This document shows, piece after piece, positions 19,667 to 48,592 of a stretch of DNA of 64,000 nucleotides (position 1 is its first letter; each line of letters starts with the position of its first letter). The notes beneath the pieces were generated by a model. That model saw only the letters and a program-made list of their open reading frames with translations. It did no database searches and was not told where the DNA came from. Source of the stretch: Obelidium mucronatum (Eukaryota > Chytridiomycota > Chytridiomycetes > Chytridiales > Chytriomycetaceae); the NCBI GenBank assembly GCA_025765595.1, contig JAIVFH010000019.1:1-64000 (forward strand), in the 5' to 3' direction. Position numbers and translations under genes: made by a program.

Positions 19667-22600
19667 ATGAAGGGCTTTTTTGCAACCCTTGCGGCTGCCA
19701 CAAGGAGTAAATCGCCCGACGGACGCAAGGCCTCCCCGCTGTCGCCACCAACCTCTCCAAATACCAAACCAGCCACAATTGCCATCCTTCCAAAATCTAG
19801 TGATGAATTGCCTGGCATGCTCTCATGGAATGATAAGGACGTCACTACAAGCAGTGGGAGTACCACACAGCTCGAACTATTCAAACGTCTTCACGAACAG
19901 TGGAAACAAGCCGAAAGCCAAGGAGTCTTTATAGACTCCAAAGCCCACATCAGTTTATCAGCTTTCCTTGCCGTTATGCACGGATCCGCGCATCTATCCA
20001 TTGCAGACCGTAAAGCCCTGGAGACAGCGCTTCAACAAGCCTCGATAGACATTGTTGCTGACAAACAACAAAACCCCCATGCTGGTGACAACACTGCCAT
20101 TTACGGCGTCCACACCGGACTCGGTGGGACCGCAGATACAAGATCAAGAGATGCTCAAGCCGCTCAAGCTAGTCTCATCACGCATTTGAATGCCGGCATG
20201 TCCAACCATCTTCATGATGCACGCGTTACAAGGGGTGCCATGGTATTGCGGGTTCTTGCAATGACGCGTGGCGGATCTGCTGTTCGTTTGGAGGTCATTG
20301 AAGCTCTCGTCAAGTTGATTGAGGCTCGGGTTGTTCCGTGTGTTCCACTTCGTGGGTCTATTGGTGATAGTGGGGACTTGATTCCGTTGTCTTATGTGGC
20401 GGGGTTGATTAGTGGGCGGTTTAATCATGATGCGAAAGCTGCAACTGGTGAGTTGTTTTCCGTTTAGCACTGTTGCCTTCAACATGTATTCTCATTTTTT
20501 TTTTTAATTTCAATTTTTTTTTCACCTGTCAAGATTTTAAGGGACACTTCCTGACAGGCCACCAAGCCCTTTTGTTGGCTGGAGTGCCGAAGCCAATCAC
20601 TTTTACTGCCAAAGAAGCGTTGGCTCTTGTAAATGGCACGTCTTTCTCATGTGCCATGGCTGCCTCATGTGTGTTGGACGCCCATGTAAGCTCTATTTTG
20701 TCATCTATGAAAACAAAGACCCTCTCTAAAAAACAACAACTATCCCAGTCACTGACACTGCTTGTTCAAATACTGACGGCTTTTAGCACTGAAGTCCTTG
20801 CGGGAGATGTTGATGCGTTTGACCCCGCCGTCGCTCGCTTACGTCCCCATCCTCGACAAGTAGAGGTCTGCACCAACATCACCCACCTCCTTCGTGATTC
20901 CAAACTAGCGGCAAAAGATAAATCCGCGCGGGTACCACTTCTATGGCGCCACACAATGCCCCGGGATCGCTACAGTATCCGCGCAGCTTCACAATGGCTA
21001 TGCCCCTTGGTAGAATGCCTAGGTCAAATTACGAAAACGCTTGAAATCGAAATCAACTCTGTCACAGACAATCCACTCGTAGATGTCGAAACAAAGTCTA
21101 TACTCCATGGCGGCAACTTCCAAGCACTCTCGGTGGCAGACGCGATGGACAGACTAAGACTCCAATTGCACAACGCGGGCCGTTTGATTTTCGCCCAACA
21201 TTCCGAGCTTATGAATCCAACCACGAATCAAGGGCTCCCAGCAAACCTGGCTTGGGGACCCGCCGGAACCGATTTTGGGTTCAAAGGACTAGACGTTTCT
21301 ATGGCTTCGTATTTGTCTGAACTAGGAGACTTGGCACTGCCAATGTCTGTGCAGTCGGCTGAACTGCACAACCAATCTGTCAACTCGCTTATTTCAGCAC
21401 GTAAAACTGCACACGCGATTGAAATCCTGCAGATGATGTGCGCTTGTTTGATGGCTGCTCTTTGTCAAGCAGCTGATTTGCGCGCCGTGGAATCTGCCAT
21501 TTGTAAACGGGTCTTTATCACCATCTCAAAACAAGTCCGGGATTTGGGAATCCGTAACTCAAATCGTCTAATTCCTCTTTTGGAAGACGCGATTGCTGTG
21601 AAACTTACTGAACATCGGGAGTTGGAATTGTCTGATTGTATCACGCTTGCGGTGGAAAGTGCTTCGGGGAAGCTTGTCGCGAGCCCGGAATGCGCCCACT
21701 TGACGGTCTTGCAATTGAAAGGGTTTTCTGACAGCCTATTTCAAGGGATTCAGAAAGATATTGATGCTTCGCTCCAAGAGGTTGGCAATGGCCTTGGATA
21801 CTCTGTGCTGTCGTCATCTTCGAGAAATTTATATTCTCACATCCGTAATCGTGTCAAAATGTGAGTTTTTTTCGTTTCAGTTTTTTTGTTGAAACAAAAC
21901 GCGCTTATATGGGAACTTTCAGCCCAATGTACAAGGACTCGACATCATTTAACATGGGGAAAATGTTGGATCAAATTCTCTTGTTTGTTCAAACTCGGCA
22001 AGATCTTGACAAAACTATTTTGGAATCCTTTGATGGAACAGATAATCATGGGACAGGTCCCAGATCCAGCAATGATTCTATGACTCCAGATCTCGATACC
22101 GACTCTGTCACTGCTCATTATACTCGCGATGTATCCCTTGACTATGAAATCCCCCCTTCTCCCTTCAAGATTCAGAGAATGAATAATTCCACTGAATCGG
22201 CGGAAATTCCGATTGTATCCAACGTTGACGTGATGCCAGTGGCCTCAATACCACCATCTCTTGCCAGTTCCAAATCAGCTGTCACGCCCTGCCCACCTCT
22301 GGACTCAAAACCCGAAGAAATTGCAATCATCGGAATTGGCTGTCGCTATCCTAATGATATCTACTCGCCTGACGAGTTTTGGGATAGAACCTTGGTGGAT
22401 GCAAACAGCTTCATTACAGACATTCCAACAACAACGAGAAAATCATTCCGCCGAGCATCACCAACCATTCGCGGAGGATTTCTATCAAAGGAGGTTGTGG
22501 AGGAGTTTGATTGTGGATTCTTTGGGTTGTCTCCAAGTGAAGCAAAATCTATGGATCCTCAGCATCGACTCATTTTGGAGACTGTGCATAGTGCATTGGA

Positions 22601-25600
22601 AGACGCGAATATTCCGCTGGATTCGTTGAAAGGAACAGATACTGGTATGTCTTGGCTGGTTTTTTATTTGGGCTAAGGGGTTTTTATAAAGGTGTTTTCA
22701 TTGGATGCCGACCCAGCGGACATGATGTTCGCAACTTTGAGTTATTTGGAATGGATGATTCACCACGATATACCGCCGTTGGGACAGACTTGACCTTTTC
22801 TGCGAATAGAGTATCGTTTTGGTTGGATTTGAAAGGGCCATCGCACAGCGTCACATCTGCGTGTAGTACAGGCGGGGTCCTTTTAGATATTGGTGTTCGA
22901 TCGATTCTCCAGGGTCAATGCAAAATGGCAGTCGTCGGCGCCGTGTCTGTTATGACCCATGAATCAGTGTTTGGCATTTTAAAAGCAGCTGGTAAGCAGC
23001 CGAATTCCAATGCATTCCAGAATTTTTTCCAATTGCGTGTTTTTTTTTTAGGAATTCAATCCGTTGCGGGAAAATGTGCTTCCTATGACAAGGATGCGGA
23101 TGGCTATGTTCCAACAGAATCTTCGGTTGTTTTCATTATCAAGAAACTCAGTGATGCTGTCAAATGCGGCGATCGAATTATCGCGACTGTTTCTGGCATC
23201 TCCAATCGACACAAGGGAAGAGAGGGTCTTGGAATCAGCTACCCTTGTGGTGACGCCAACACCAACGCCATCAATGAAGCTCTTGCAGCGGCTAAATGGA
23301 CTAGTGATGAAGTAGAATTTGTTGAAGCGCACGCAACCGGCACTAAAACGGGAGATCCTGTGGAAGCAGCTGCCATTGCGAAATCTTTCCAAAGCGAAAC
23401 ACGGTCTTCTCCTGTTTACATTGGAGCAGTGAAATCTATTGTCGGACACACTGAAAATGTCGCAGCGCTGACATCTATGGTGAAAGTTTGTTTGGCAATG
23501 CGTGAAGACATGATTCCACCTACTCTGCTTGACTTGTCGAGGCTGAATCCAGCTGTGGCCAAATCGTTCGACATTATTCCTGCTGAAATTCCAACAAAGT
23601 CAACTCCCTGGAATTCAATCTCATTCGGTAAGAAGTCGCTAGTGCTGGCAGCTGGCTTGGGAGGGTCGGTTATTGCAGTGGCAATGAAGGCTGCACCTTT
23701 CAATTCTGCAACGCAATCAATATCGAGTGTTTGTAGAGTTTTGACCATTTCAGCTGCCAATCCTAGCTCTCTATTAGCGCTGCGGGACTCCTACGTTGCT
23801 CTTATTTCAAAATCTGGTGAGGACGTTCTGAACCGAATTGTAGTGTCGTCCAACTTGGGCCGCCAACATATGCGACAACGAATCGCCATTCCTGTTGAAA
23901 ACAAAGCGTCCTTGATCGGTTCTCTCCAACGGAGCGAACTCCACAAATTATCACCCAAAAAGCCAACTTTCATTTTCGTCTTCCCGGGTCAAGGATCTTT
24001 GGACCTTGAAGCGTGCGCGGAAATGCATCGCACAGTAGCAGCGTTTCGACAATGCATTCAGGTGAATTTATTGAGGAATGGTTTCTCAGGCATCTAACGA
24101 CGAAACCCTGAAACTAGCTTTGTGTTTTTGCCTTGAATGACCTTGGTTTTCCGACGTCAATTTTGACAGATGTCGTTCAAGGAGTCAACACCAATATTCG
24201 CGGTGAATATGAGCAGACTGTTCTCCTATTGTTGCAGTACTCCATCGCTAAAACTATGATCGATATTGGAATCTCACCAAGCTGTTTAGTTGGGCATAGC
24301 TTTGGAGAGATCGTTGCTGCTACCATCTCCGGCGCATTGTCTTTGAAGACTTCCATTTTATTGACTCATGAACGCCATAAACCTATGCTTCAGCCTGAAT
24401 GCGCAGGAATCATGGTTTCCGCTTTTGCTTCAGCTCAAATTCTGCGGGAAGCCATCAAGGAATGCAAGGCCCTTGTTGATATTGCTGCATTTAACGGCAA
24501 GGATCAGCACGTGATATCAGGAGAATCCAGTCAAATTGAAAAGCTTATCATCAAGCTCTCCAAGTCAAATATTCGGATCCATCGTCTTCCAAATGTTATC
24601 GCGTTTCACTCGCATCGAGTTCAAGATGCTTCACAAGTTTTTGAAGAGGCCATGGAGGGAATCTACAAGTCGGATAAAATACAAATTCCACTGGCGTCAT
24701 GTTTGACTTCACTGGTGATGTCCAAAGGATCTTTCATTCCTTTAAAGCACTGGGTCAGCCACATTGTGCAACCAGTGCTGTTCGCAGGAACGATCTCGGC
24801 TGTGGATTCCGACTACCCCAATGCTACCTATATTGATATTGGTGCTGGTTCCATATCTTCATTGGTAAGGCGCCATTTGACTCCGACTCCTGGAAGTCGG
24901 CAGTATCTGGGTGCCCTCAATTCGTTCGCAACTGTTATTGCCACTCTGTACAATCAAGGTGTTGAAATTGACTGGAAAGAATTGCACGGGCATGAATTTC
25001 CTCGTTCAAATATGGCCACCCTTCCTTTATACAAGTATACCCGTGTCCCTGTTTGGGATGATGTAGAGCAAAATATGAACCAGCGAGTGGCGAATCTTCC
25101 CATGACCGTTTCGAATGCAATGCCTCGACCAAAAATTGCCATCGTCGGTATGGCGGTACGATTGCCAGGAGGAGTAGTGTCACTCGAGCATTTATGGAGG
25201 GCGCTGAAGGCAGAATCGGTTATGGGAGGATCTCTACCCAGTGACAGACCAGAATTCCTTTTTCAGAATCCAGAGCTCAGAAAATTAAAGGCAGCATTCA
25301 TTGATGAAGCGTTTATGTTGGACACGTCGTTGTTCAAGATCCCGGAAGCTGAGGCTTACACTGTTGCCCCGCATTTACGAGTTCAACTAGAAACGGCTTG
25401 GAATGCAATTGAGTCAGCCAATATTATTCCCTCTGCAGTGGGGTCTTATCGGGCGGGGGTGTTCAGTAATACTTCTGCGGGATCCCACGACTTGTATTCA
25501 AACCGACTTGTGGCCAGCGGAATCATCGCGAAGCCTGCGGGGAGCAAGGGCCTATTTATACCCGAAGAAAATGGCTTCCTTGCACAAAAGGTTTGGTTTT

Positions 25601-28600
25601 GCCGCTTGTCTGCCTTGCAATATCAACATTGACTTATGTTATTGATCAAACAGCTTGGATTCAAGGATGCCCTCACAATCGCCATCAACGGCTATTGCGA
25701 AGGCTCCATAACTATGTTGCAGTCTGTCTCTGATGCTCTGCAGCAGAATCGAATTGATGTCGCGATTGCTAATTCAGTTCGTGTGTTTGAAACAGAAGAC
25801 CACTTGAAGCAGGATTGTTTCTTTAATGCGGTCGGTGGCGGTTTGGTTGGAGAAGGGGCTATATCGATAGTTTTGAAACGGTATGACGATGCTGTTCGTG
25901 AGCAGAACCCCATTTATGCTGTGTTGGGTGAAACCGCAATAGCAAACGACTTTGATCGAGGAAACGCGCGGGCGATGACAACTCTCACCGCTGCAAAAAC
26001 TTCTGGAATTAATGTCAAAGACATGGATTTAATTTTATGGAGTCCGAACGTAGCACGCACAGGATGTATACGTTTATTTTCGGACACAATGCCAAAAACT
26101 GATGACCCAGTGCAAGGCTCTTACTCTATGGCTCTGTTTGGAAAAATATTTCATGCCGGGGGGCTATTTGGATTGGTTGCTGGGAGCTTAATGATGAAGT
26201 ATGGCGAAATCCCAGCATCAGATCCTTCCAGGTTCCCGGCTATGTTCACTCCTGCTCAATTACGCCAAATGAATATGAGCTGCAGCGGCAAACTGTGGCC
26301 TAAAAAGCAGAGCGGACTGGTGAGGAATGCTACAATATCAATCGGTGGACTGCATGGCTCTTCTGGAGCCGTGACTCTTCTTGAACCACCAGAATCGTCA
26401 ACGGTTTCTGCACCAAGTAGCTCGAGAAAATTCAACTTCTGGTTATTTCTGCCGAATCTTGGAAGTCTATTGCGGCTCTATGCTTGGAGTATGCATACGC
26501 CGTCCTGAAAACGTCGGACCTTCCAGCATTTTGTCAAGCCACCAGATTGTGCAGAGTGGCATTTAAACATAAAGTAGGATAGTTTTCTATTATCAATATT
26601 TATTGAGCCTCTTCTATTCTACTCATAGATTGCTGTGACTGGTAGATCTGCAACCGAAATCTGTGCTAAGTTGAAGAAAATTTCGTTGTCAGATTTCAAT
26701 AGTTGCAAACCCCAAGACGTATTGATTATATACCAAAGCTCCTTGTATTTGAAGCAATTGGTTCAAGGTTGGAAATTGGGTGGAAGAGGCGGCATTACTG
26801 AAACGAATGGATCACAAATCCTTGAATCAATTTTGCATGGTTTGGGGCTAAAGGCAGCAGTTTCCTCCATTGATGATATCAAAAACCTCAAGATCCCGAA
26901 TAACACGTTAGTTCTCGCTGTTGGCGAGTCTGGTTTTACAACCAGCATCAGCGAGCTACTTCCTACTTCTGTGCTTGAAATATCGGATCAGTTATCCGTG
27001 GAAGAGTTATTTGCTGAGCTGTATCCATATTCTATGACTACAGTATTTAGCGCTTACGATGACTTTTTGAGAGTTCCTAAACTGTCACCAGAAATTTTGC
27101 CGAGCTATATCTTTGATCGTCAAAATGTTCAAATGCCAGATATTTCTGGGATGGACTTGAACCGCTCTGCAACCTTATCGTATACCCCAACAACCTTCAA
27201 AAACTTATCAGGATCTTTCAAACCGAATGTGCAACAAGTTCGAAACAGTGAAAATGCTTGGATTGTCGATCATAAACTTCGAAGTGGCGCAGTGATTCTT
27301 CCTGGAGCCGCGTTACTGAGTATTGCACTGTCGGCTTTATCACCACACACGGTAGCATCCCTTTCTTTTATCAAGCCTGTTGTACTGGAAGAAACCGCAG
27401 ACGCCGAATTCTTGATCGCTCGAACATCAACTCAACTAGACTCGTTTCAAGTTCGCCAAGGGGGCATTGTACACTGCGAAGGAATTTTTATAACTGAAAC
27501 CGCTCAGGTTGTAAGGACCAATATCTTGGAGCAATTACCAAGCCTCCTTTCGTGTGGGAAAGAAATCGATACCAAAAAGTGGTACGAAAGCGACCAAGGC
27601 TCTATCGCCTACGGAAGTCGATTCAGAAATGTGAATTATCTTCGTACTTATGATAATGGTGATGCGCTGGCGTGTATTGAGCTACCATCCGATATCACTG
27701 CTGGGGGACTGGATGATCCACCCAACTCTGTTGGACGCCTGCTTCCACATGATGGCCATAATAACTACCGATGGCTCTCTTCCTGTTTGTGTGGAAAAAG
27801 TCTGGGTTTCTGAATCTTTACGAAATGGCACACATCCAAAGTCTGTATGGTGCCTACGGTCTGAAGTTGACATGCAGAGTGAACTTCAAACAGGAAATAA
27901 GCTGGAAATTTTTGATGCCAACACTGGAGACTGTTTAATGGTTGTTGGTGCATTAATTGTTCAACTTATTGGGGAATCGATGCGACCCGAGTCTCTTGTT
28001 TGGGTCAAAGAATGGGCTCAAATCGAAATGCCAGAAAAACTGGAGCTAAGCTGCATCCATCTTCTAATAGGAGACAATGATCTAGTGATAAATATGCTAG
28101 AGAAAGAGTTGAACAATGTTCACAGGATCATAATCGGGGACAATATTGCTGAGCTTATAGACGCAATTCCATGGGACAACTTGATGATTGGTTCGTTTAT
28201 TTTAACTTTGTAACTTTGTGTAGCTTACTTAGACACCGATTATGGTTATTGCAGCAGCGACAAACACGCTCCAAATTGTTTACTGTGGTACGGCTTGTTC
28301 CCTCTATTACCACTTCTGCTGCAAATACTTGGTGGGAAATCGGAGGTTACTTCCCTCTTTATGGCTGTATGGAGGGAGTTGACAAGTAGGAGAGTTAAAG
28401 GGATCGATTCAATTACTGCCACATACATCAGCCCAGCATTAAAAACCACCAGTGGCGTAGTTTCAAGCGATCCAGCGCTCGCGGGACTAATTCTCAATAT
28501 TCACTGTGAACTACGGAATAAGGCCAATGTCTTGCTACTGAACCCTGAAGCACTTACCGCTTCCTTAGAACAGTGTAAATCAATTCTACATGGGCCTCTC

Positions 28601-31600
28601 GATATTGCATCTGGATCTTATTATCTGGAAGGCAGCAGTTTGTCAAAGCTTTCTTTCACCCCCTTCCGAAAAATGTCTAGACACCAACAAGTCCAAACAG
28701 CAACTTTCAATTATGGTCACAGGTGGTGCTGGTGGACTGGCTACTTCTCTGGCTCTCCATTTTATTTTAAATGGTCATAAGGTTACTCTGGCGGGGCGGC
28801 GGGATTCAAGTGATGAATCATGTGATTAATTTCGTTAAAAAAGTTGCAAGTGAACGTTTGACATACATCAAGCTCGATGTTACAAAGGAGCAACAAGTTT
28901 CGAATGTGCTGAACGCTGGGGACTTTGACGGAATTGTCCACACAGCCGGTGTATTGGATAACAGCTTGTTGAGTAATCTTACGACTGCGTCTTTGAGATC
29001 CATAGGAAAGCCGAAGATTGAAGGAGCTCTGGCGATATTGCAAAATGTTCCGAGGCACAAGCATTGCACCGTTGTTTTCACATCATCCGTTGCCGCAGCT
29101 ATTGGCTCCTTTGGCCAAACTGGATATGTTATGGCCAATACCGTCATGGACTCGATTGCCACACAATATTGTGACAAAATTTCCCTATTTGAGCGTTCGA
29201 TCTGTGCAGCTGGGACTCGTTGATGGTGTCGGAATGGCAAATGTTGCAGATGCTTCTCATACACAAGGAGATGTGACGATAAGCAAAGATGAAACCATCA
29301 AAATTATTTCTTCTATTTTGCAGTCTCCACGGGCATTTGCTCCTGTGGTGATTGCAGCTCCACTTGGAAAGTTTTTGAAATCTCAAGAGGTGGCTGTACA
29401 ACCGGAAATTGTCGAAAAAGTGGACAAAGATGGAGCTTTGCTGTTCATTACGGAGCAAATGTCGATATTGATGGGTTTCGAATACCATCGACAGTTTTGC
29501 TACCTTTTCCCAGCTGGGCGTTGATTCGGTCTCATCCATCACGTTGCAGAAGAATATTGAAATCAAATTTGGAGTCAATGTTCCTCTTCTCAATTTGTTT
29601 CAAATGACTCCAGATGCCCTTGCGGAGGATATATCAGAAAGAATGAGGGCTCCCAGCAGTGTGGCGCAACAGAAGCAAAGTACCCCTGTGGAACATAGTA
29701 AGAGACTTACTATTGAGATCGTTAAAATTGACTATTGAATGTAGCAGTTTTGGCTGTGGAAGCTGAGGGACGCGAAGGAGAACTTACCATTATGAACAGC
29801 TTTCAGGAATTAAGTATGTTCCATTGCAGTCCTTGAATTTACAACTAACTGGTTTTTTAGTTCATAAAAGCAGAATCAACACTGTGCCCGAGATGTTGAA
29901 ACACCATACAGTGGTTCGCCCGAAATCGCCATTTATTCAACCGTCGAAGAATTCAAAGGACGATATCTCATTTGAAAAGTTTGAAGCCCTATCAGATGCA
30001 GCAATGAACATTATCGCAGATTCCTTCGGAAATATTGTTGCTGGTTCATCTCCGCCTGTAGTCTCCATTATGGCTGGAACCAGTTACGAAGCAATGATAA
30101 TTACAATGGCCGTTTGGAAGCTCGGATGGACCACAGCCATGCTCAACCCAAAGGCTTCAGTGGATCTTTTGATTCGCCAGGCTCAAGCGGTTTCTAGTGC
30201 TGCACTTATCTCTGTTGATAAACGCGACCTCTCTAACGCTGCAACTGTATCTGAAACTTTGGCCATCCCTTTGTTGATGACGGACTCAAATGTACTCTTG
30301 ACTCCACCTCGAATTTCGGAATCAGAGACAGCGAAAATCCTTGCGGTCAAACTTCCTTTGAAGCCGGACACCCCCCTTTGCTTCCTCTTTTCGTCTTCAT
30401 CTGTTGATGGCACTTCTATCAAAGCTGCTCGTCTCTCTCATGGACAGGTGCTTGAAAACTGCAAGATGCGAGATATGTTGTGGAATTCGCCATATACAAC
30501 AACCACTTCCAAGGTTTTGACGTGGCTTCCCTTTTCGCATGTTATGGGATTGATTGTTGATTTTGTCAACAATGGGCTTGTTGCCGGTATGACACTTTGC
30601 CTGAGACCATCTCGAGAGCATCCTGCCACACCTGAGTTTTTATTGGATGATGTCATTGCCGTCAAACCGTCGCTGATGTACACCGTTCCTTGGGTTTTGG
30701 ACTCCTGGGTATCCAAATTCGACACAAACCAAAACAGTGGAAATCACGTGGATATGAGTACCGCAGTGAGCGTGTTGAGAGGAATGAACGCCCTCATTGC
30801 CGGTGGGGCGCCTTTGAAACCAGAGACACGAAAATTCTTGGTTTCACGAGGGATACATATTTTGGAAGGAATGGGAGCAACTGAAGCGGCCGGTACGATT
30901 TTCACGGGGCTGCTAAAACCTGCAAGTAGTTCAGCTCAAGACGAGGAAGGTTGGATGACCCCTCTTCCAGGATTTACTATTGTATTGGAACCGACAGAAG
31001 GTTGGCCAAATGAAAATATGGGAATGTTGGCGATTTCGGCGCCATCTATTTCAAAACATGTTGTGTCGGCGCGTTCTGGAGAGACATGTCTTGATCTAAT
31101 TCCAAGAAATTTGTTGGTTGATGGCGGCCTGTTCCGTACTGGTGACATATTCGAAAAGAGAATAGTGGTTCTTGGTGAAGGGTCTGAATTGACAGAGTAT
31201 CGGTTTGTCTCTCGAGCAGACGATGCTGTGATGCTGAGGTTAGTTCTTTGATATTATTTTCTCCCTTTGTTCTAAAAATTTGATCAGTACGGGCTTTGCT
31301 GTCGCACCAAGTATGTTGGAGGAGTCTTTGGTTGCCGAATTCTCTGATGTCTCGTGCGCCTGTTTATTGGCTGATTTCCGCAGCATACCCCACCTCATTC
31401 TCAAAATGAATGAAAATGGCGCGCTTCGTTCCAACATTGATACTCTCAAGATGATCTCTGCATGCATTCGTAGATGCGCCCCTGAACTTCAAATTGATGG
31501 CTCACGCTTAATTGTTGTTGGACCAGACTTTGTCATGCCAATGAGTCCGAAAAACACAATCCTGCGCGGTCGCCTGCGCTCAACGTTGTTCAATAACCGA

Positions 31601-31603
31601 TAA
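19667..31603 (+). CDS. Aromatic ammonia lyase-PKS-AMP ligase megasynthase
   Basis: One gene of about 12 introns and about 3,700 codons. The domain order is ammonia lyase, linker, KS, AT, degenerate KS, DH, KR, ACP and AMP-forming ligase. Lyase and PKS are joined because intron 21861-21922 (GTGAGT...TTTCAG) splices the lyase through its own C-terminal segment (MYKDSTSFNMGKMLDQ) into the PKS linker. ACP and ligase are joined by in-phase introns near 29699-29746 and 29814-29862. Predicted role: deaminate Tyr or Phe, activate the acid on the ligase, load the ACP and extend it with malonyl units. Frame breaks occur near 26430 (A run), 27707 (G run), 28300-28350, 28700, 28830, 29190 and 29485. Several lie in homopolymers and conserved motifs resume at once, so consensus error is the likeliest cause; a dead gene is the alternative. 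Confidence 0.8.
19820..22020 (+). other. Ammonia lyase domain (PAL/TAL/HAL family)
   Basis: Family motifs in order: catalytic Tyr in IYGVHTGLGGTADTR, MIO region GSIGDSGDLIPLSYVAG, NGTSFSCAMAA, DRYSIRAASQW, NSVTDNPL, HGGNFQALSVADAMDRLRLQ and AQHSELMNPTTNQGLPANL. The MIO triad, normally Ala-Ser-Gly, reads Asp-Ser-Gly at 20366-20374. The selectivity position reads THLNAGM (His codon 20183-20185), where plant PAL has Phe (RFLNAGI) and tyrosine lyases have His. An 86-nt intron interrupts at 20448-20533. Confidence 0.85.
22310..23700 (+). other. Ketosynthase domain, catalytically complete
   Basis: It begins EIAIIGIGCRYP. The active-site Cys lies in SVTSACSTGG (codon 22862-22864). Both His are kept, in EAHATGTKTGDP and KSIVGHTENVAAL. 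Introns lie at 22646-22691 and 22992-23051. Confidence 0.85.
23960..25060 (+). other. Acyltransferase domain
   Basis: FVFPGQGS opens the domain, an intron lies at 24062-24117, and the active Ser is in LVGHSFGEIVAA. AFHSH near 24602 is of the type found in malonyl-selective ATs, so a malonyl extender is the likely substrate. Confidence 0.8.
25125..26400 (+). other. Second, degenerate ketosynthase
   Basis: It opens KIAIVGMAVRLPGG and keeps the KS fold pattern, with an intron at 25591-25653. A Cys is present in NGYCEGS, but the EAHGTGT block is replaced by LWSPNVARTG, which removes the first His. FHAGGLFGLVAG retains the second. It probably does not condense. Confidence 0.65.
27230..27990 (+). 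other. Dehydratase domain
   Basis: The HxxxGxxxxPG motif is present as DHKLRSGAVILPGA. The second catalytic region is LLDACFHMMA, one base out of frame after a five-G run near 27707. The stretch between the degenerate KS and this domain (26430-27230) looks like a decayed AT remnant. Confidence 0.65.
28250..29420 (+). other. Ketoreductase domain
   Basis: NADPH-binding MVTGGAGGLATSLAL lies near 28713, and catalytic Ser and Tyr/Asn are kept in FTSSVAA and GYVMANTVMDS. The domain is spread over several frames because of indels near 28340, 28700, 28830 and 29190. Confidence 0.65.
29440..29690 (+). other. Acyl carrier protein
   Basis: The phosphopantetheine Ser lies in LGVDSVSSITLQ near 29518-29553. 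A frame change of one base at a GGG run near 29475 precedes it. Confidence 0.7.
29860..31603 (+). other. C-terminal AMP-forming ligase (ANL) domain
   Basis: Typical ANL blocks are present: a start like NTVPEMLKHHT, a Ser-rich P-loop (FSSSSVDGTSIKAARLSH, longer than usual), LEGMGATEAAG, LFRTGDIF, SRADDAVML split by an intron at 31237-31287, and a C-terminal Lys in SPKNTILRGRLR. Position after the ACP at the end of the protein is unusual; in hispidin-synthase-type enzymes the ligase comes first. Confidence 0.75.
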
Positions 31604-31680: not shown

Positions 31681-32571
31681 TCAGTATAAATAGGGAATCA
31701 TCCGCTTCCAGTTTTTGGGTAATTTATCACACCCAAAAGCCGTTCGGTACCACTCTCGATTATCATGCGCCGATATTCCCAGTTCAACGGTTACACACAC
31801 AAGAATCAAAATTGTCGTCAGGTCCCGGAATCCGTATAATACCACAAAGGATGTGTAAATGCAGACTTCAAAAAAGTAGTGTGGAGCTGCAACCAGTGCA
31901 AAGTATCCTTGGGTTGGAAGTTTGTAGGCGCGTAGATCAGTTCTTTTGTTTTCTGTGTTGGGCCGAGAATCGTTGGATCTCAGACTCGCCAACTGCAAAT
32001 GTGCAACAGTTTGTTGGAGGCTGGCGAATCCAAAAAGTCCACACGCTAGAATATGGCGCCATTCCAGAAACTCCATCGCACTTAAACTTTCGAACGGTTT
32101 GTCATATTCCACATGCTCAATGACAACTGCGACTGGTGTTAGAGAGTAGAAGAGCATCCCGTTCACATAATGGAACACGTGGATTCGAGCACCTGAAGAC
32201 GGCTGATGAACAAAAAGGCATTCAAATAACCTGCGAAATACTTGAACTATCATGAATGACATTGCCAAGAACGTTTCTGGACTTGCTGTCAAAGACACCA
32301 TATCCGCCCATTGAAACACCAGGCCCGAGTACAACACCAGACACCACAGAGAGCCAAGAATATAGAAGTGCGTAAAATAAGACTTTGGTATTGTCAGTCC
32401 GACAACATGATCAAGCCACGTTTGAACATGAGATGAGGTTGGGGCTGACCCGGCAAGGACTTTTCCATAGCTCTTCAGCTGGCTTAGACCCAGTACGTTG
32501 TAGTGAAGCGCCACTATTGCAGCGGGAACTGCAGCATAGAAGCTTCGAATGACCAAAACAAGTGTATCCAT
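31681..32571 (-). CDS. Polyprenol reductase, SRD5A3/DFG10 type
   Basis: This single-exon gene of 296 codons has its ATG at 32569-32571 and stop at 31681. It is a polytopic membrane protein with about six hydrophobic segments. The C-terminal steroid-5-alpha-reductase signature is present: HYFFEVCIYTSFVVLYGFRD, then NREWYRTAFG and NWKRMIPYLY at the very end. VFRRLFECLFV and HYVNGMLFY also fit the DFG10/SRD5A3 branch. That branch reduces polyprenol to dolichol in the ER for N-glycosylation. Its stop lies 77 bp from the end of the convergent megasynthase gene, and its start lies 63 bp from the TIR gene. It is probably a housekeeping gene, although double-bond reduction of a product next door cannot be excluded. 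Confidence 0.8.
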   Translation of the reverse strand: MDTLVLVIRSFYAAVPAAIVALHYNVLGLSQLKSYGKVLAGSAPTSSHVQTWLDHVVGLTIPKSYFTHFYILGSLWCLVLYSGLVFQWADMVSLTASPETFLAMSFMIVQVFRRLFECLFVHQPSSGARIHVFHYVNGMLFYSLTPVAVVIEHVEYDKPFESLSAMEFLEWRHILACGLFGFASLQQTVAHLQLASLRSNDSRPNTENKRTDLRAYKLPTQGYFALVAAPHYFFEVCIYTSFVVLYGFRDLTTILILVCVTVELGISAHDNREWYRTAFGCDKLPKNWKRMIPYLY

Positions 32572-32634
32572 TTGCGTGCATCAATAATCAATTTACAAAC
32601 ATTCCCCGAAAAACAGTCCACATCGCTCTTTAGG
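32572..32634. promoter_or_regulatory. 63-bp bidirectional promoter
   Basis: This spacer separates the start codon of the polyprenol reductase gene (32571, minus) from that of the TIR gene (32635, plus). No element is recognised. Confidence 0.4.
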
Positions 32635-44669: not shown

Positions 44670-45848
44670 ATGAACACACCACCACCTTTACCAGCAGCTT
44701 GTGGCAAGCTACTATACCCCCGACTTTCAGCAAGGCAACTCTGTGTGCATTAGCTCCTGGAAGATCAATGCCAGGCATGCCATTCGTTGGGACTGGGACG
44801 AGACGGTGGAGCTTATACTCTCCACATGCAGGTACTTTACCCCCTTATACGGCCCGCCTATCATCATCATCCTCTTTAAAAGAACTCTAATTAGTTTTCT
44901 GGGAACCTGGTGCTCTACCGCTTCAGCGACGGATTCATCAGTTGGGCGTCCAACACACAGAACATTGAGTCGCCCGACACCAACTTTTTCTACTCGAGCG
45001 ATGGAAACATTGGAATCTTTCGCCAGGGGATGATTGTCAGCACCAAGAACAAGATTGGTGATACCTGGGGCAGCAATGGACTTTTTTGTCTTGACGTCAT
45101 GGAGGGAGTTGCGACGCTGTACAATGCCGGGCAAGCATCGCTGACGAATCCAATCTGGAATTCTAGACTCGATGGCGGATACCTGGTGGATGGGTATCCG
45201 TCGACGCCCACTTCTCCGGGACCAGGGCCGAGAATCCCGAGTTCAGCTACTGGTGTACAACAACCGCCGTCGCCTGGTCCAACGATTACAGGAGGTGGTT
45301 TCTCGACTGCGGTATCTGGTATACCTGCAGAAAAAACGGGAATTGCATCGCCTTCGGCGCCAGACAACAATTCTACCACTCCAAAACAAAGTAATGGCCT
45401 CGGTATAGGTCCAATTGTAGGAATTTCCGTCGGAGTTCTATTCGCTTTCATTGGTCTTGGCTATTTCGTGTATCGCTCGAGAAAGAGAAGCAAGAGCTCC
45501 ATCAACAACAACAACCACAATCACAATAACAACACGTATTCCATGGCCGAGATGCAGAAGAAGCCATATTCTGAAATCCCGCAAGAAAAAAGGGATCCTG
45601 TTCCACAATACATTGATTACGCCGCATCTCCAGAATACGTAAACGGATCTGCAACGTATTCTGTCACGGCTGTTCCAGCCTTCTACCGAGCTATTGTAGA
45701 CCACGAGCCCTTAAAGCAAGGGCAATTGCGTCTTAAGGCTGATATGAGAGTATACGTTACTGCTATAGATAAGAACGGGTGGTGCAAAGCGTTGGTCGGT
45801 AGAGAGGAAGGGTATGTGCACGCTACCATGCTGGCAACGTTGGGTTAA
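44670..45848 (+). CDS. Bulb-lectin/TM/SH3 protein, tandem member 3, 5' exon damaged
   Basis: Exon 2 (44895-45848) is intact and encodes FSGNLVLYRFSDGFISW, a second lectin repeat, a Pro/Ser linker, TM (IVGISVGVLFAFIGLGYFVY) and SH3 (VPAFYRAIVDHEPLKQGQL). The first exon (44670-44831), which begins like members 4 and 5 (MNTPPPLPAACG), carries three one-base insertions relative to them near 44705, 44750 and 44773, which scramble the conserved Cys region. The start is therefore uncertain. No signal peptide is seen. Confidence 0.65.
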
Positions 45849-48000
45849 AAAAGCGCGTATATTTTCTTCTTCTTCTTTGATTTGTTTGACGATTGCCTTT
45901 TGAATGCACGTGGTATGGCTTTATTTTAGGTAAATTTTGCCAATTTTTGTAACAAGACAATAATAAAAACTCGATTTAATCTTAAATGGCCACACCACCA
46001 CCATTACCAGCACCATGTGGCAGGTACTATACCCCAGACTTTCAACAAGGCAACTCTGTGTGCATAGCTCCTGGAAGATCAATGCCTGCATGCCATTCGT
46101 TGGGGCTGGGACGAGACGGTGGAGCTTACACTCTCCACATGCAGGTACTTTCCCCCCTTATACCGGCCCGCCTATCATCATCATCATCCTCTTTAAAAAC
46201 TTGGAGAACTCTGATTAGTTTTCTGGGAACCTGGTGCTCTACCGCTTCAGCGACGGATTCATCAGTTGGGCGTCCAACACACAGAACATCGAGTCACCCG
46301 ACACCAACTTTTTCTACTCGAGCGATGGAAACATTGGAATCTTTCGGCAAGGAGCGATCGTCAGCACCAAGAACAAGATTGGTGATACCTGGGGAAGCAA
46401 TGGACTCTTTTGTCTTGACGTCATGGAGGGAGTTGCGACACTGTATAATGCCGGGCAAGCATCGCTGACGAATCCAATCTGGAATTCTAGGCTCGATGGC
46501 GGGTACCTGGTGGGTGGGTACCCGTCGACGCCCAATTCTCCGGGACCTGGACCGAGAATCCCGATTTCAACTGCTGTTGTACAACAACCGCCGTCGCCTG
46601 GTCCAACGATTACAGGAGTTGGTTTCTCGACTGCGGCATCTGGTATACCTGCAGAAAAAACGGGGATTGCATCGCCTTCTGCACCAGACAACAATTCTAC
46701 TACTCCAAAACAAAGCAATGGCCTCGGTATAGGTCCAATTGCAGGAATTTCCGTCGGAGTTCTATTGGCTTTCATTGGTCTTGGCTATTTCGTGTATCGC
46801 TCAAGAAAAAGAAACAAGAACTCCATCAACAACAACAACCACAACAACACCACGTATTCCATGGCCGAGATGCAGAAGAAACCATATTCTGAAATCCCGC
46901 AAGAAAAAAGGGATCCTGTTCCACAATACATTGATTACGCTGCATCTCCAGAATACGTTGGAAACGGATCTGCAACGTATTCTGTCACGGCTGTTCCAGC
47001 CTTCTACCGAGCTATTGTAGACCACGAGCCCTTAAAGCATGGACAGTTGCGTCTTAAGGCTGATATGAGAGTGTACGTCACGGCCGTAGATAAGAATGGG
47101 TGGTGCAAGGCGTTGGTTGGTAGAGAGGAAGGGTATGTGCACGCTACCATGCTGGCAACGTTGGGTTAAAAAAGCGCGTATATTTTCTTCTTCTTCTTTG
47201 ATTTGTTTGACGATTGCCTTTTGAATGCACGTGGTATGGCTTTATTTTAGGTAAATTTTGCCAATTTTTGTAACAAGACAATAATAAAAACTCGATTTAA
47301 TCTTAAATGGCCACACCACCACCACTACCAGCACCGTGTGGCAGGTACTATACCCCCGACTTTCAGCAAGGCAACTCTGTGTGCATTGCTCCTGGAAGAT
47401 CAATGCCTGCATGCCATTCGTTGGGGCTGGGACGAGACGGTGGAGCTTACACTCTCCACATGCAGGTACTTTACCCCCTTATACCGGCCCGCCTATCATC
47501 GTCATCATCATCCTCTTTAAAAACTTGGAGAACTCTGATTAGTTTTCTGGGAACCTGGTGCTCTACCGCTTCAGCGACGGATTCATCAGTTGGGCGTCCA
47601 ACACACAGAACATCGAGTCACCCGACACCAACTTTTTCTACTCGAGCGATGGAAACATTGGAATCTTTCGGCAAGGAGCGATCGTCAGCACAAAGTACAA
47701 GATTGGTGATACCTGGGGAAGCAATGGACTCTTTTGTCTTGACGTCATGGAGGGAGTTGCGACGCTGTATAATGCCGGGCAAGCATCGCTGACGAATCCA
47801 ATCTGGAATTCTAAGCTCGATGGCGGGTACCTGGTGGATGGGTATCCATCGACGCCCACTTCTCTGGGACCTGGACCGAGAATCCCAAGTTCAACTACTG
47901 TTGTACAACAACCGACGTCGCCTGGTTCAACGATTACGGGGGATAGTTTCTCGACTGCGGTATCTGATATACCTACGGAAACAGCGGGGCGCATTCCGCA
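45849..48000. repeat. 1,321-bp tandem segmental duplication
   Basis: Starts of members 4 and 5 are exactly 1,321 bp apart (45986, 47307). The 137-bp intergenic piece before each (from about 45849 and 47170, beginning with the same GCGCGTATATTTTCTTC sequence) is essentially identical. Identity continues through exon 1, the intron and the lectin part of exon 2, then stops near 47960. Confidence 0.85.
45986..47169 (+). CDS. Bulb-lectin/TM/SH3 protein, tandem member 4
   Basis: Two exons, 45986-46144 and 46219-47169, are both intact. The N-terminus MATPPPLPAPCGRYYTPDF has no hydrophobic signal peptide, and an in-frame TAA directly precedes the ATG, so none is hidden upstream in that exon. The lectin core follows, then a Pro/Ser linker, TM (IAGISVGVLLAFIGLGYFVY), basic stop YRSRKRNK and SH3 with NGWCKALVGREEGYV. 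If it enters the ER, the TM must act as a reverse signal-anchor; the basic flank after the TM supports N-out, C-in. Confidence 0.8.
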
Positions 48001-48592
48001 AAGTATATCGATTCCAGTGACTGCTAGTGCTCCAACAACGTACTTGAGTCTTGTATCCACAGTAGCGACAGCATCCCCCACATCAACAACGAACGGGAAA
48101 GAAAACCCAGGCGGTATGAACTCCAGCGTAATTGCCGCCATATCAAGTGTTGGGGGAGGACTGCTCTTGATTGCGATTGGATTGGCCTATTTCTATTATT
48201 GTTGGCGATCCAAACGAGACACGGACAAAGGCGCACACCAAGCTGCCAATCAATACTTTTCGCGCCTCACTCCCAGTTTGGTATCGTTGGACAAGTGGAA
48301 TGATCGACATGACCACCATCCTCCATCATCGTCAGATCCAGCCGATGTCTTCTCAATCACAAGTCTGCCAGTCTATGCGAATGGATCGATTGTAGTAGTG
48401 ATGGCGAATGTCCCGGGAGTGTATGTCGCGACGACGAGTCACGAGAGTTTGTCTGATGGGGAGCTCTCGTATTCCGAGAACGATCAAGTGTATGTTCTAT
48501 CGAGGCCGGGGAGACATGGGTGGTGTCGTGCCAAGATTGGGGAGGCGGAAGGATGGATAGAGGCTGTTAATCTTGAGCCCCTGGATATTTAA
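47307..48592 (+). CDS. Bulb-lectin/TM/SH3 protein, tandem member 5, chimeric
   Basis: Exons are 47307-47465 and 47543-48592. From upstream of the start through the lectin domain, to about 47960, the sequence is nearly identical to member 4. After that the linker, TM (VIAAISSVGGGLLLIAIGLA), cytosolic tail and SH3 (VPGVYVATTSHESLSDGELS...HGWCRAKIGEAEGWIEA) are different and resemble member 1 more. The product therefore pairs a shared ectodomain with a different signalling end. Confidence 0.8.

Follow-up and report, generated by a model that had tools for sequence, protein, structure and literature searches.

The DNA analyzed here (hereafter, the window) is a 64,000 nt stretch within contig C19 of the chytrid Obelidium mucronatum, the genome surveyed, which comprises 48.3 Mb in 694 contigs. 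It carries a gene for a predicted megasynthase that combines an aromatic ammonia lyase of the phenylalanine or tyrosine ammonia-lyase type (PAL/TAL) with a type I polyketide synthase (PKS) and a C-terminal AMP-forming ligase (Table 1). A preliminary description, made from the sequence alone, had named the order lyase, ketosynthase (KS), acyltransferase (AT), second KS-like domain, dehydratase (DH), ketoreductase (KR), acyl carrier protein (ACP) and ligase, and all were recovered in that order on one strand by Pfam and NCBIfam matches and by the GVDS motif of the ACP. It had omitted eight intronless frame changes, the altered active-site triad (D-S-G) of the lyase and the remains of another KS-AT linker and AT.

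Exons 1-7 join into 1850 open codons from a methionine, which cover the lyase, a linker, the first KS (KS1), the AT and the start of the second, degenerate KS (KS'), and the six introns between them are all GT-AG and 47–86 bases long. The lyase-KS1 fusion is firm because the tail of the lyase, the linker and the start of KS1 lie in one exon, and the same uninterrupted stretch is found in two further copies, on contigs C7 and C624. The tail is counted as part of the lyase since a stand-alone lyase at C7:468.7 kb has the same tail. The joining of ACP to ligase is indicated by two introns that are matched in the C7 paralogue. These and intron 3 are GT-AG and spliced in frame, which bears out the in-phase introns proposed earlier near 21861 and 29699/29814, and the public model of the C7 copy (P0001) is spliced as in the window at all three. 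A last intron of the ligase is inferred at 31239–31287, and the whole gene would give a single transcript. The second half of KS' has no Pfam match in a scan of the window protein. From its linker motifs, the region that follows reads as a vestige of another KS-AT linker and AT, and the stretch between DH and KR is taken as the structural half of the KR.

Table 1. Features of the megasynthase gene of Obelidium mucronatum, in window positions.
Feature	Position	Strand	Remarks
Megasynthase gene	19667-31603	+	lyase, KS-AT, degenerate KS, DH, KR, ACP, C-terminal AMP-forming ligase
Exons 1-7	19667-20447, 20534-20685, 20749-21860, 21923-22644, 22692-22991, 23052-24061, 24118-25590	+	
Lyase domain, exons 1-3	19667-21860	+	PF00221, E 2.3e-33 and 9e-67; PAL structures, best E 1.9e-99
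Intron 3	21861-21922	+	GTGAGT...TTTCAG, phase 2; joins lyase to C-terminal tail, linker and KS1
Exon 4	21923-22644	+	lyase C-terminal tail (to ~22030), linker (to 22313), N-terminal part of KS1; single open frame
KS1, exons 4-6	22314-23697	+	introns 22645-22691 and 22992-23051; PF00109, PF02801
AT, exons 6-7	23961-24871	+	intron 24062-24117; PF00698, E 5.7e-22
Degenerate KS (KS')	25129-26385	+	intron 25591-25653; PF00109, E 2.3e-17, first half
Putative KS-AT linker remnant, shortened AT, post-AT linker	26430-27147	+	intron 26574-26628
DH	27148-27982	+	PF21089, 28.3 bits (cut-off 27); frame change near 27700
Pre-KR stretch	27983-28670	+	frame changes near 28290 and 28350, predicted intron between
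KR	28671-29430	+	NCBIfam matches; frame changes near 28690, 28830 and 29180
ACP	29431-29697	+	LGVDSVSS; PF00550 on homologue P0121; frame change near 29480
ACP-ligase junction	29698-29860	+	intron 29698-29744, 69-base exon 29745-29813, intron 29814-29860
AMP-forming (ANL) ligase	29861-31603	+	PF00501, E 4.3e-32; stop 31601-31603

Copies and homologues in chytrid genomes

A second locus with the whole domain order lies at C7:122-141 kb, with about 42–86% amino acid identity to the window per matched stretch; because this paralogue on another contig keeps the entire order, a chance succession of motifs is ruled out. The copy on C624, a 12.3 kb contig, is mostly 94–98% identical, begins upstream of the gene and runs as far as the contig end, which falls inside KS'; it is either the other allele or a recent duplicate of the window copy. 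No second allele of the 3' half was found in the assembly, where the three matches are the window itself and C7 twice. Besides that of the window, five lyase sites were found in the genome: those at C7:124.6 kb and on C624 have a KS behind them, those at C7:468.7 kb and on C61 have none near, and the site on C347 has none behind it, but there the match reaches the contig end. The stand-alone lyase (C7:468681-470600) has an A-S-G triad and, after the same intron, the same C-terminal tail, followed by a linker-like stretch and a stop, and C347 carries its near-identical partner. It is perhaps a fused gene after loss of the PKS, and its place in the lyase tree is weakly supported.

The same architecture is present in other chytrids, as single predicted proteins of 3807, 3818 and 3863 aa, one from Siphonaria (P0121) and two from Podochytrium (P0122 and P0123, here copies 1 and 2), whose Pfam lists contain lyase, KS, AT, DH, KR, ACP and AMP-binding domains. 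With the 5' half of the gene, the best public match was P0001 (BDR26DRAFT_852386), a partial protein of O. mucronatum itself; among the best 120 of 800 matches to this query, a lyase domain occurs in two, P0001 and P0002 of Nowakowskiella. With the KR-ACP-ligase part of P0001 as the query, it occurs in four of the best 120 of 214 matches (P0001, P0121, P0122 and P0123), the remaining matches among those listed having E values of 1.4e-27 or weaker. The Siphonaria lyase, searched against long proteins only, gave five matches among 7989 scored: the same four and P0240, whose Pfam list lacks a KS. The protein search was non-exhaustive, as a true relative found with the 5'-half query (P0004) is absent from the KR-ACP-ligase matches listed.

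In Nowakowskiella the order is split over two models with adjacent locus numbers and contigs of equal length. The boundary between P0002 (lyase) and P0004 (PKS-ligase) falls at the residue that matches intron 3, for which a missed splice would be the simplest reading. Among the matches listed, the fusion was found in chytrids only. The single-gene architecture put forward in the preliminary description is supported by the exon across the lyase/KS boundary, the C7 paralogue and the full-length single models, three in all, from Siphonaria and Podochytrium. It had also stated that it knew of no described enzyme of this kind: no description of a lyase-PKS fusion enzyme was found in the open-licence literature, among the matches listed, but predicted, unnamed proteins of the same kind are public. 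P0002 (Nowakowskiella sp. JEL0407) also has, before its lyase, a flavin halogenase-like stretch (residues 186-407; RadH 8gu0, E 3.5e-10), which suggests either a halogenated product or merged gene models.

Catalytic motifs of the lyase, PKS and ligase

The lyase of the window is well recognized by PF00221 (Lyase_aromatic; 116 and 226.2 bits, cut-off 27.3) and matches PAL 6at7 with 337 bits over residues 138-575. It resembles the PAL/TAL-type lyases 6at7, 6rgs and 1y2m in sequence but differs in being fused to a PKS and in the triad from which the 4-methylideneimidazole-5-one (MIO) group is formed, which reads D-S-G (first position at ~20366) and not A-S-G. In the C624 copy the triad is V-S-G, RYSIQ stands in place of RYSIR, and there is at least one coding indel. 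The A-S-G triad and the catalytic Tyr, Asn, Arg and Glu motifs are kept in C7, Siphonaria P0121, Podochytrium P0122 and Nowakowskiella P0002. Podochytrium copy 2 has an A-G-G triad, and neither the Tyr loop nor the RYSLR region is present in its model; these missing parts may in part be a gene-model artefact, while A-G-G itself is in the sequence. Natural variants of the triad include Thr- and Cys-Ser-Gly, and we know of none with Asp- or Val-Ser-Gly; no paper on a Thr-Ser-Gly triad was found in the open-licence literature. The window lyase has probably lost MIO formation and with it the active center. The earlier proposal that the protein makes its own aromatic starter is doubtful for this copy, given D-S-G in its triad and V-S-G in that of the near-identical C624, but own-starter synthesis is possible for the lyases of C7, Siphonaria, Podochytrium copy 1 and Nowakowskiella. 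In alignments, the selectivity site shares His-Leu with sorghum PAL 6at7, where 6rgs has Phe-Leu, and we take His-Leu to mean acceptance of tyrosine.

Motifs of the other domains were compared across six sequences, each being judged in those that reach it, and the motifs of KS1, AT, ACP and ligase are kept in all of these. In the window, KS1 has its Cys (TSACSTGG) and both His residues (EAHATGT and KSIVGH), and the AT has GHSFGE and IAFHS, the latter presumably of the malonyl type. KS' retains Cys in the window (INGYCEG) and a His in an altered second motif (GKIFHAGG), but has LILWSPN where an HGTGT-type motif is expected; that motif is absent in all six sequences, and in Nowakowskiella the Cys is lost and the linker/AT remnant between KS' and DH is nearly absent. 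The DH motifs (DHKL...LPGAAL and HPTLLDACFH in the window) are kept in five of the six and altered in Nowakowskiella. The KR has TGGAGGLA and, in one frame, TSS...GYVMAN with the Tyr motif, which is also kept in Siphonaria, both Podochytrium copies and Nowakowskiella and is garbled in the P0001 model. The KS, AT and ACP active-site motifs lie on one chain, in the window only when the frame changes at 26.4-29.5 kb are bridged. A single KS with full motifs and a single ACP would fit repeated use of one module, as in an iterative type I PKS.

The AMP-binding domain of the window ligase scores 111.8 bits (cut-off 29.9), and the A10 lysine lies in MPMSPKNTIL. The P-loop of ANL enzymes is commonly close to SGTTGxPKG; that of the window is SSSSVDGTSIKAARLSH, and all six sequences have the non-standard form SSSSVDGxSxKxxRL(S/T)H. 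It is plausible that the ligase, which retains most of its motifs, activates an aromatic acid.

A putative family of aryl-primed megasynthases

The reading we favor, with a probability of roughly 0.62, is that these proteins form a chytrid family of single-chain, aryl-primed megasynthases, in which an iterative type I PKS (KS-AT-[dead KS]-DH-KR-ACP) follows a PAL/TAL-type lyase and precedes a C-terminal ligase, and in which the lyase of the window copy is probably dead. Where the lyase is intact (C7, Siphonaria, Podochytrium copy 1 and Nowakowskiella), it would produce cinnamate or p-coumarate, which the C-terminal ligase would adenylate and load onto the neighboring, sole ACP; KS1 would then take over the aryl starter from the ACP and extend it with malonate. 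No thioesterase was among the Pfam matches of P0121 and P0123, both full-length homologues, and for this reason we suppose that ring closure would release the product, which would be a pyrone or chalcone-like. If expressed, the window copy would be primed with free aromatic acid from the C7 copy or from the stand-alone lyase at C7:468.7 kb.

In the enterocin, squalestatin and strobilurin clusters, PAL, ligase and PKS are encoded by separate genes, so that a comparable chemistry is spread over several proteins rather than held on one chain as in the chytrids. The loading of the sole ACP by the ligase, with KS1 starting from there, is proposed by analogy with FnsA and hispidin synthase. FnsA is a fungal nonribosomal peptide synthetase-PKS (a naringenin synthase) whose in-chain adenylation domain loads p-coumarate or p-hydroxybenzoate, and whose PKS part gave no product from p-coumaroyl-CoA (PMC9606254). 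It shares with the chytrid enzyme the in-chain adenylation of a free aryl acid and the KS-AT-DH-KR-ACP content; it differs in its N-terminal adenylation domain with its own T domain and in its thioesterase, and its stated architecture includes neither a lyase nor a second KS (PMC9606254). Hispidin synthase likewise has AMP-binding, ACP, KS and AT domains, with KR and DH in those orthologues that come from non-luminous fungi, and its orthologues contain AMP-binding, ACP, KS, AT, DH, KR and ACP domains; the AMP-binding domain of hispidin synthase is N-terminal and there are two ACPs (PMC9866795), and the word "ammonia" has no occurrence in that text. The chytrid proteins lack such an N-terminal adenylation-carrier pair, the ligase being placed after the single ACP.

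If the reading is right, the deamination of an amino acid, the activation of the resulting acid and polyketide assembly are brought together on one chain in early-diverging fungi. In this family one could test directly whether a fused lyase supplies the PKS to which it is joined, the probable lyase-dead copy within one genome serving as a natural control. Anaerobic gut fungi, another early fungal lineage, are reported to produce a compound interpreted as a styrylpyrone, or with other software as a flavonoid, to which no gene is assigned (PMC8106346).

Signs of decay and alternative readings

Several observations weigh against this reading. The homologues are all gene predictions. Intronless frame changes lie in the window near 26.4, 27.7, 28.29, 28.35, 28.69, 28.83, 29.18 and 29.48 kb, the C7 copy has at least seven, and the stand-alone lyase has about two as assembled. 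Evolution is fast over the full length of the window copy (KS-AT branch 0.556 versus 0.102 for C7; lyase ~0.42 versus 0.07); since its KS-AT branch is also long, nothing marks out the lyase in particular, and the copy as a whole may be decaying. These trees have 8 (lyase) and 6 (KS-AT) rows, with 2/5 and 2/3 inner branches unsupported. An aromatic substrate of the ligase is weakly supported because the P-loop is non-standard and there is a single weak relative in PDB at E <= 0.001, an anthranilate-CoA ligase (3.3e-5).

The fused family could be real and the window copy a pseudogene in decay, with only C7 at work, an alternative we consider rather unlikely. Eight frame changes inside 3.1 kb and the broken triad would then mark loss of function, as would the changes in C624 and the fast evolution, and between the window and C624 the ratio of nonsynonymous to synonymous rates (dN/dS) is ~1.0 in the lyase tail and linker (10 versus 3 changes). 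Against this, dN/dS between the two is 0.25 overall (72 nonsynonymous and 89 synonymous changes), with 0.13 and 0.11 in the KS1 parts, 0.20 in the AT-KS' exon and 0.35 in lyase exons 1-3 (lyase exons versus KS parts, Fisher p 0.010), and 6.7 kb at the 5' end as well as the ligase are frame-clean. Assembly error is also plausible, given the frame changes in C7 and in two control genes: an RNA polymerase second-subunit gene (C10:125305-125833; Pol I in our reading) has two within conserved motifs, which points to consensus indels in the assembly, and an HSP90-type gene on C48 apparently has one, although two other HSP90 genes have none, which speaks against that account. We read the frame changes of the window as partly assembly noise, with true decay of the copy possible.

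Differences were also counted at those columns that do not vary among Siphonaria, Podochytrium copy 1 and Nowakowskiella, with gaps left out unless stated. The window differs at 40/309 columns in the lyase, 10/190 in KS1, 14/101 in AT, 10/69 in KS', 15/64 in DH, 3/19 in ACP and 19/199 in the ligase; the 21/88 in KR is inflated by a frame switch set ~60 bases too early. With gaps counted, lyase versus KS1+AT gives p 0.039 and lyase versus ligase p 0.17, and the case for decay of the lyase alone is weak because AT and DH are as loose. The C7 control differs at 5/199 (lyase) and 4/176 (KS1). In Podochytrium copy 2 the counts are 45/271 for the lyase, 3/190 for KS1, 2/101 for AT, 0/90 for KR and 7/200 for the ligase (gaps counted, lyase 90/320 versus 5/291, p 2.4e-22), and its branches are 0.371 versus 0.073 (lyase) and 0.089 versus 0.042 (KS-AT); by the column count, loss of the lyase alone appears clear.

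Pairs of lyase-intact and lyase-altered copies thus occur in two genera, Obelidium (C7 versus the window and C624) and Podochytrium (P0122 versus P0123). On the favored reading, some sister copies lose their own lyase and probably accept free aromatic acid by way of the ligase. A broader and more tentative suggestion, to which we would not yet give even odds, is that duplicated megasynthases repeatedly divide the work, the lyase of one copy supplying the acid while that of its sister dies and the sister is primed in trans through its ligase. A dead lyase is perhaps retained as an oligomerisation scaffold.

The ligase might instead act elsewhere, for example on a fatty acid starter or in chain release, with the lyase product used otherwise. 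The divergence of the ligase (its P-loop and one weak solved relative) and its position after the ACP, unlike the N-terminal adenylation of FnsA and hispidin synthase, would fit; we think this improbable, as the A5, A8 and A10 motifs are kept in the sequences that reach them and in the C7 DNA, the sole solved relative is an aryl-CoA ligase, and fusion with a PAL-type lyase points to an aryl acid.

That lyase, PKS and ligase are separate head-to-tail genes fused only by gene prediction is hardly credible, despite the two-gene annotation in Nowakowskiella and the stand-alone lyase with the same tail, and is rejected on the strength of the exon shared in the window, C7 and C624 and by the homologues, with the Nowakowskiella cut falling at intron 3 as expected from a missed splice, three full-length single models in two further genera and the ACP-ligase introns matched in C7.

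Two further features of the window were observed. A steroid 5-alpha-reductase-like gene (PF02544) lies on the minus strand at 31681-32580, tail to tail with the megasynthase gene and with its stop 77 bases from that of the latter. Three tandem genes with near-identical N-terminal parts occupy 44895-48592, the first of which has weak SH3-like and syndecan-like matches, below cut-off.

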